Source of the DNA: Nitratireductor mangrovi
Lineage (GTDB): Bacteria > Pseudomonadota > Alphaproteobacteria > Rhizobiales > Rhizobiaceae
Reading direction: 5' to 3'
Assembly (NCBI RefSeq): GCF_007922615.2
Contig: NZ_CP042301.2
Span: 2,480,001 to 2,544,000 of the forward strand
DNA length: 64,000 nt
Under the pieces are notes generated by a model that made no database searches, had not been told where the DNA came from, and was given only the letters and a program-made list of their open reading frames with translations. Position numbers and translations under genes: made by a program. Positions within the stretch are counted from its first letter, which is position 1; each line of letters starts with the position of its first letter. Positions 52,402 to 52,964 of the stretch are shown one piece after another.

Positions 52402-52456
52402 CCTCGCCCCCGCGAAGCGGGGGAGAGGTGGCGAGCGCAGCGAGCCGGAGAGGGGG
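52402..52456 (+). repeat. Palindromic repeat family A, left copy
   Basis: The core arm at 52402-52432 begins CCTCGCCCCCGCGAAGCGGG and is an exact reverse complement of 52912-52942. It contains the hairpin CCCCCGC GAA GCGGGGG and ends in the G-rich CGGAGAGGGGG. It lies 20 bp upstream of the hisG start, in the former leader of hisG. Confidence 0.85.
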
Positions 52457-52460
52457 ACCG

Positions 52461-52964
52461 TCACCGCTCGCCCTCCCGGTGCCCTTCGGCGACGAACCGC
52501 ACATCTGTGGCAACAGCATCCTGCGCCAATCGTCCCTCCAGGGCCGCGAGTATCGTTTCGCAGACGCTACGCAGTTCCCTGACTGCGTCCTGACTCCAGA
52601 ACCGCAGCACCGACCAGCCTTCCCGGCGCATGAACTCGTCTCGACGGCGGTCGCTAGTGCTGTCGGCATGCTGAGAGCCGTCGAGTTCAACGGCGAGCTT
52701 TTGGCTTCGGCAGGCGAAGTCTGCAAAGTAGGGACCAAGGGGCATCTGGCGGACAAACTTGTAGCCGCCGAGTTTCTTCGCCTTCAGTTCGTCCCAGAGC
52801 ATCGCTTCGGCCATGTTGCCGCCGCGGCGCAGTTCGCGGGCACGTGCAACGCCGCCAGGGGAGCGTCGGCTTGGCTGGACTGCCCCCCTCTCCGTCTCGG
52901 GGTGTGCCCGAGCCACCTCTCCCCCGCTTCGCGGGGGCGAGGAATTCCTGTTGCCCGCAATCAT
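52461..52964 (-). CDS. DUF559 endonuclease-like protein
   Basis: A 167-residue protein with a Vsr-like DUF559 domain, a PD-(D/E)xK-type nuclease fold. From about residue 40 the domain reads RARELRRGGNMAEAMLWDEL, KFVRQMPLGPYFADFACRSQ and LAVELDGSQH with the acidic residues. The first ATG at 52964 overlaps the hisZ stop (ATGA), while its first 27 codons run through the flanking repeat; an internal ATG at 52814 would give a domain-only protein without a clear Shine-Dalgarno. It may be coupled to hisZ translation. Target and activity are unknown. Confidence 0.8.
   Translation of the reverse strand: MIAGNRNSSPPRSGGEVARAHPETERGAVQPSRRSPGGVARARELRRGGNMAEAMLWDELKAKKLGGYKFVRQMPLGPYFADFACRSQKLAVELDGSQHADSTSDRRRDEFMRREGWSVLRFWSQDAVRELRSVCETILAALEGRLAQDAVATDVRFVAEGHREGER
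52884..52942 (-). repeat. Palindromic repeat family A, right copy
   Basis: Inverted copy of the element at 52402-52456. The 31-bp core (52912-52942) is identical in reverse complement, the other end reads CCCCCTCTCCG, and between them is a second hairpin CTCGGG CACA CCCGAG absent from the left copy. It lies within the first codons of the DUF559 frame and directly follows hisZ. Confidence 0.85.

Follow-up and report, generated by a model that had tools for sequence, protein, structure and literature searches.

Intrastrand triplex motifs (TM, TMECO/PIT) combine a hairpin with a third block that mirrors its purine arm, and the part of PMC4666352 available to us counts 23 copies of one such motif in E. 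coli K-12, among them five inverted pairs. There, triplex formation in vitro is documented for TMECO, and the motif loci are described as hypervariable or unstable in E. coli by a mechanism that is called unclear. The same part of the paper finds the motif unassociated with transposons, phages or plasmids and its flanking genes without a shared function, and it cites an earlier study in which the motif showed neither promoter nor terminator activity; the terms endonuclease, DUF and hypothetical protein are absent from its text. GTAG and CGTC repeats are covered in PMC3733652, whose available part gives the CGTC repeats no dedicated transposase. On the enzyme side, the DUF559 protein VsrA of Caulobacter has been proposed as a mismatch-repair enzyme functionally tied to the methyltransferase ScmA, according to the available part of PMC12907096. 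The literature naming DUF559 holds, judged by title and start of abstract and with subscription papers and preprints outside its scope, no link between DUF559 and repeats. Literature searches returned nothing relevant on Box C repeats and nothing on GIY-YIG enzymes with repetitive extragenic palindromic sequences.

We analysed a stretch of 64,000 nucleotides from Nitratireductor mangrovi (the window), in which an intact DUF559 gene lies between hisZ and hisG (Table 1). The gene is bracketed by 31-bp arms at 52402-52432 and 52912-52942 that are reverse complements without mismatch, exactly as the sequence-only reading had claimed. We consider that the locus probably represents a widespread type of selfish unit, REPtron-like and made of a repeat, a solo DUF559 nuclease gene and an inverted repeat.

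Table 1. Features of the DUF559 locus and neighbouring genes in the window
Feature	Position	Strand	Remarks
Repeat unit 1 (hisG side)	52402..52462	+	
Unit 1 hairpin	52402-52428		arms CCTCGCCCCC/GGGGGAGAGG, one mismatch
Unit 1 inner imperfect stem-loop			GGCGAGCGCAGCGAGCC
Unit 1 tag	52447-52456		GGAGAGGGGG
Repeat unit 2 (hisZ side), inverted copy	52878..52944	-	
Unit 2 hairpin	52916-52942		
Unit 2 inner stem-loop			CTCGGG-CACAC-CCCGAG; sequence unlike unit 1 inner stem
Unit 2 tag	52884-52893		
DUF559 (Vsr-like PD-(D/E)XK) endonuclease-like ORF, 167 aa	52461..52964	-	domain 52536-52847
hisZ	52961..54079	-	start taken from sequence; stop overlaps DUF559 ATG as ATGA
hisG	51683..52381	-	separated from hisZ by the element
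glcE-like gene	62685..63887	-	distance to DUF559 gene about 10 kb

The arms are parts of two-stem repeats of about 60 bp. The inverted match extends beyond them (52400-52439 with 52905-52944, 40 nt, 93%), and a second inverted block pairs 52441-52462 with 52878-52899 (22 nt, 86%). The G-rich tag GGAGAGGGGG is an exact mirror of the hairpin purine arm GGGGGAGAGG, matching at 10/10 positions in both window copies. The tag reads CCCCCTCTCC / GGAGAGGGGG in the window repeats, and no GTAG tag is found beside the hairpin. The second loops measure 18 and 22 nt, outside the 1-6 nt loops of the ITxF definition. Whereas the inner stem pairs fully in the hisZ-side arm, it pairs imperfectly and on one strand only in the hisG-side arm. 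The DNA of the hisZ-side arm folds well above shuffled sequences (z -3.4 and -3.6), and folding of the hisG-side arm is modest against shuffles on both strands (z -1.5 and -1.4).

The first residues of the DUF559 protein (SSPPRSGGE...) are encoded by the repeat. Its first ATG had been read as overlapping the hisZ stop, and this holds: the left end of the element retains the ATGA of the hisZ-hisG junction, reused as the DUF559 start. A purine-rich stretch with ATGA flanks the element on both sides, and the start of hisG appears to be preceded by its own AAAGGAGG. Coupling of the DUF559 gene to hisZ and a polar effect on hisG, both suggested by the sequence-only reading, are conjectural. Comparison of the flanks reveals no clean or convincing target-site duplication at hisZ-hisG. 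A 25-bp core of the arms, allowing at most three mismatches, has two matches in the genome (4,855,325 bp, one contig), both of them the flanking arms, and the backwards-read control pattern has none. A dispersed REP family of this type is ruled out in the window genome by this copy number, as is a RAYT as hidden partner by the lack of any Y1_Tnp match at E <= 0.001. The bracketed unit itself contains no transposase, in agreement with the sequence-only reading.

The window protein belongs to DUF559 (PF04480; Pfam E 1.2e-31, 109.2 bits, cut-off 20.6), and Pfam finds no other domain in it. Its catalytic-type residues D82, E93, D95, H99 and D105 are invariant across 36 sequences. The predicted structure has a mean pLDDT of 79, with ten-residue blocks of 81-96 across residues 51-140. 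Its closest solved structures are 3hrl, from an endonuclease-like protein of Neisseria with 38% identity, and the domain of the homing endonuclease I-Bth0305I, which we take to be of the EDxHD type. Both are also recovered by profile search, and E. coli Vsr is a lower-ranked match among solved structures. By its modelled fold, the protein is a Vsr/homing-type PD-(D/E)XK nuclease with predicted activity. Models of the antiphage proteins ProA and PDC-S37 are only weakly similar to it. The window genome contains three DUF559 matches, namely the window gene, a domain in an 1834-aa frame and a solo gene at 649107. The latter, whose neighbours we take to be cysS-like and GFA-like genes, has another repeat type, with an inverted pair just upstream (648915-649075, 28-nt arms, CCCCCCTCTG tag).

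We surveyed the hisG loci of 29 relatives (30 matches including the window genome itself), seven of which lacked a readable hisZ beside hisG. The hisZ-hisG junction is empty in all 22 readable relatives, and the two genes overlap by ATGA. Such precise empty junctions are a result that the sequence-only reading had named as supportive. The nearest protein relatives (L191-L194, of which three are from named Mesorhizobium and one is from a Hyphomicrobiales MAG) are 70-74% identical to the window protein, the next best reaching 56%. All four carry the window repeat type, recognized by the detector described below in L191 and L194 and by eye, in degraded form, in L192 and L193. Their element sits behind one oxidase gene and, in L191, L192 and L194, ahead of another; we take these genes to be glcD and glcE. 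The contig of L193 ends before the downstream neighbour, and the glcE position was read in the other three only. Two Mesorhizobium with the element (L292, L294) have an empty hisZ-hisG junction; their hisG is separated from the element by about 9 kb of one contig, and in the window genome no repeat lies upstream of the glcE-like gene. The positions at hisZ-hisG in the window and at glcD-glcE in relatives thus place one element lineage at two junctions of the same neighbourhood. Mesorhizobium alhagi, the genome of L193, has hisZ and hisG separated by a small C-rich palindrome of unrelated sequence (L293, 440-580). Because of this second palindrome, the junction may be a repeated target.

Two tests were applied to other DUF559 loci: (a) an inverted-repeat pair scoring at least 18, with arms at least 20 nt apart, and (b) a class-specific hairpin with a stem of at least 8 and an all-pyrimidine 5' arm, each within 400 bp of the domain. 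Both detectors were designed after the first loci had been inspected. Among 111 solo DUF559 loci, which come non-randomly from the top of score-ordered lists with solo status judged by score and frame, 90 are positive by (a), 98 by (b) and 109 by either. The pool joins the relatives, order and phylum sets; it counts both solo genes of the window genome and excludes the contig-edge loci L038, L049, L099, L101 and L145 and the long-protein loci L003 and L050. The two misses, L144 and L182, show AT-richer versions of the repeat by eye. All 19 solo loci of the first set are positive by (a), as against 2/28 hisG loci of the same relatives, and so are 14/20 solo loci of the following set versus 0/20 domains in long proteins.

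None of the 22 loci with DUF559 within long proteins (L003, L050, L124-L143) is positive by either test. Among 28 of 30 hisG loci (the window's own site, L006, and the short L027 being excluded), two are positive by (a), one by (b) and three by either. For 680 arbitrary windows, half-overlapping, 1112 bp long and drawn from twenty regions of 20 kb each in these genomes, the corresponding counts are 13, 16 and 24. GIY-YIG genes (23 of 30 loci, those of expected length) give 9, 0 and 9, and Y1_Tnp genes (19 of 30, likewise) give 10, 2 and 12; these positives are mostly repeats of other kinds. A repeat pair as such is thus not special to DUF559, being common at both of these families; it is the repeat class that sets DUF559 apart (98/111 by test (b) versus 0/23 and 2/19).

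Named loci behave in the same way, with 75/80 positive (63 by (a), 67 by (b)). Four of the misses (L192, L193, L225, L268) have degraded repeats by eye, and at L224, on a contig edge, no repeat was seen. Beyond Pseudomonadota, detector-positive loci occur in Chloroflexota (L251, L253), Deinococcota (L311, L312) and Cyanobacteriota (L315), and repeats are visible by eye at the cyanobacterial loci L313 and L314. The desulfobacterial records L233, L261 and L270 are also detector-positive, and a Bacillota DUF559 gene with an HTH neighbour (L316) has no repeats. A gonococcal DUF559 gene has repeats downstream by the detector and upstream by eye. The linkage between DUF559 and repeats is firm, and neither outcome named as refuting the sequence-only reading was observed: a gene shared by every relative at this site but lacking repeats, or arms that are widespread with no tie to DUF559 genes. 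The sequence-only reading had also likened the locus to REP/RAYT as a selfish or homing-type unit. The empty junctions and the repeats at 109/111 solo genes speak for that likeness, and dispersal does not extend to the window genome, with its two copies.

Some records deserve separate mention. In Sinorhizobium meliloti Ak57 (L378, 720-1432), two whole inverted repeat pairs with 114-nt arms surround DUF559; this unit is composite-transposon-like and adjoins ISRm16, in a record labelled pSymB though 3.7 Mb long. The Neisseria gonorrhoeae and E. coli records H15, H16, H22 and H23 of the plasmid collection are chromosome-sized. E. coli ycjD was rejected as an empty-site test: at least 80% of the ycjD stretch is present in 3364/5426 genomes, and the four compared records without it (L295, L296, L298, L299) have efflux or regulator genes at the site and so offer no clean empty site.

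When the 80 named loci are oriented by the gene, the hairpin lies upstream in 57, downstream in 44 and on both sides in 34, at a median distance from the domain match of 50 nt upstream and 41 nt downstream. In 88/101 nearest hairpins, the tag side is turned toward the gene (upstream 52 toward, 4 away and 1 tie; downstream 36, 6 and 2). Mirror symmetry was scored in 240 unique units with a CCCC-type tag, taken from 466 flank-arm units. In the 222 units that are not self-mirrors, the tag resembles the mirror of the hairpin pyrimidine arm (mean identity 0.861) more than its direct copy (0.776) or shuffled arms (0.737); the mirror beats the direct copy in 139/222 and is worse in 20, the remainder being equal. 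Under the strict score, two arm classes do not show the mirror, those with CTCTCCCT at the end (better in 0, worse in 3) and those with TCTCCCTT (better in 1, worse in 5), and in some non-mirror units of these arm classes A replaces T in the tag. A purine-motif triplex would permit a mirrored tag of this kind, in which A is faced by either A or T. Downstream of E. coli ycjD lies GGGGAGAGGGTTAGGGTGAGGGG. This locus and the mirror logic suggest that the DUF559 repeats correspond to the published intrastrand triplex motif, an identification made from sequence and apart from the sequence tables of PMC4666352.

Repeat number was compared across 150 order-level genomes. The CTCTCCC-GGGAGAG hairpin has a median count of 9.5 where a solo gene is present (52 genomes) versus 0 where there is none (81 genomes; Mann-Whitney p 2.7e-13, ignoring phylogeny), 0 in 13 long-protein-only genomes and 10 in 4 genomes with a broken gene. 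For CTTCTCCC-GGGAGAAG, the medians are 3.5, 0, 0 and 0.5, respectively (solo versus none, p 7e-15, again ignoring phylogeny), and reversed control patterns occur 0 or 1 times per genome. The effect is weaker when labels are shuffled within the 16 families holding both kinds of genome (59 genomes, the 4 broken-gene genomes being dropped): 11/16 families go up and 5 down, and 21/5000 permutations reach the observed value. Repeats are also abundant in some genomes without a solo gene (94 in G148, 72 in G083 and 34 in G059).

Repeat class follows protein relatedness, the nearest protein neighbour sharing it in 113/158 cases (permuted mean 35.9 and maximum 67 in 2000 permutations). With neighbours of at most 60% identity, 69 cases share the class (permuted maximum 61); at 50% or less, the signal is gone (29/158 versus 35.7 permuted). 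Two DUF559 genes of the same genome share their repeat class in 9/21 pairs.

The repeat pair beside a plasmid DUF559 gene of Azospirillum lipoferum 4B recurs across the five plasmids of 4B, at 51 places in all, and is absent from the other Azospirillum records of the collection searched. The search returned 53 places in 7 records, the remaining two being in Deinococcus, one touching a DUF559 gene. We read three of the A. lipoferum sites, two of them annotated, and both of these are without a DUF559 gene. A. ramasamyi is without the pair at all three, A. oryzae at two aligned sites and B510 at one; at the third site, the gap exceeds the pair length. A. ramasamyi (L305) and A. oryzae (L310) have a single hairpin where A. 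lipoferum has the whole pair, which would also fit the loss of a pair that their ancestor carried. These single hairpins may be the ancestral target or may instead be scars left by deletion, resembling the 'palindrome effect' of PMC4666352. An Azospirillum brasilense-type locus (L300) was rejected as a contrast, its whole stretch being present in all 7 Azospirillum records found.

Could the linkage merely reflect a shared niche, in which repeats and small spreading nuclease genes gather at variable intergenic sites that they share, without being functionally tied? Inverted pairs near other small nuclease families (GIY-YIG 9/23, Y1_Tnp 10/19) fit this reading and are a counterpoint to a selfish DUF559 unit, as does the hypervariability of triplex-motif loci in E. 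coli reported in the available part of PMC4666352. The hairpin is class-specific, however, and tag orientation, the median spacings of 50 and 41 nt and the tracking of protein relatedness by repeat type all argue against a common niche, which we hold to be unlikely. Quite unlikely, too, is an insulating role, in which the hairpins would be terminators or attenuators silencing a dangerous nuclease and not its substrate. They do lie near the gene, on both sides in 34/80 loci, and the related single hairpin of A. ramasamyi (L305) is terminator-like; yet termination needs neither mirror symmetry nor orientation of the tag, the pair occurs at 51 places on A. lipoferum plasmids, and the earlier study cited in PMC4666352 found the motif, as far as the available text goes, without promoter or terminator activity.

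The different sites at which close relatives carry gene and repeats speak against a role in upkeep, where DUF559 would be a Vsr-like repair nuclease preventing decay of repeats or methylated sites and the linkage would be incidental or addiction-like. Such a role is suggested by the modelled Vsr fold of the window protein, by the tie between Caulobacter VsrA and ScmA described in the available part of PMC12907096, and by a methyltransferase gene (PglX) downstream of the cyanobacterial locus L314, but overall it seems very improbable to us. A selfish nuclease with its cognate repeat, REP/RAYT-like with unrelated enzyme and repeat, is the most economical explanation.

Comparison shows physical linkage, tag orientation, type matching, more repeats in genomes with the gene, and presence or absence at conserved junctions; recognition, nicking and movement by the DUF559 unit are what we infer. 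The solo nuclease would recognize its cognate repeat folded as single-stranded or extruded DNA and nick it beside the tag, and the nick would initiate copying or transposition of the segment between the repeats. It might also act in trans on inverted repeat pairs without a gene. Since the repeat linkage recurs in several phyla, DUF559 is likely the missing partner that spreads or maintains these repeats. If true, a dedicated nuclease would supply a function for a large and so far uncharacterised protein family, and it would define a class of mobile-element enzymes outside the known transposases, possibly with shape-specific cutting. A wider proposal, possible but doubtful in our eyes, is that DUF559 proteins are transposase-free mobile-element enzymes reading DNA shape, that a purine-motif triplex of tag and hairpin marks the cut, that they drive triplex-motif repeats in Pseudomonadota, Deinococcota, Cyanobacteriota and Chloroflexota, and that each palindromic repeat class has its own small nuclease (HUH-GTAG, GIY-YIG-CGTC, DUF559-triplex motifs). 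CGTC-tagged palindromes often adjoin solo GIY-YIG genes (L347-L376). A generic CGTC detector was too loose (76/340 windows), and the strict version, CGTC-hairpin-CCA, was used instead; it is found at 5/23 GIY-YIG, 2/380 windows, 1/28 hisG, 0/19 Y1_Tnp and 1/111 DUF559 loci.

Compared with REP/REPIN and RAYT, the DUF559 unit likewise has a small gene between inverted tagged palindromes, repeat pairs dispersed in a genome (A. lipoferum) and matched gene and repeat types. In contrast, the enzyme is a Vsr-like PD-(D/E)XK protein instead of an HUH Y1 enzyme, and the tag mirrors the hairpin arm over a long stretch instead of reading GTAG. These two differences, in enzyme and in tag, place the unit outside REP/RAYT. 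Fold and catalytic-type residues are shared with Vsr and with homing endonucleases of the I-Bth0305I type, but the DUF559 protein described here is free-standing and bracketed by repeats. Caulobacter VsrA belongs to the same domain family, with a role in mismatch repair with ScmA proposed there. With the intrastrand triplex motif, the window repeats have in common the hairpin with its mirror block and the arrangement in inverted pairs, and they differ in carrying a stem-loop where the motif has a short second loop.
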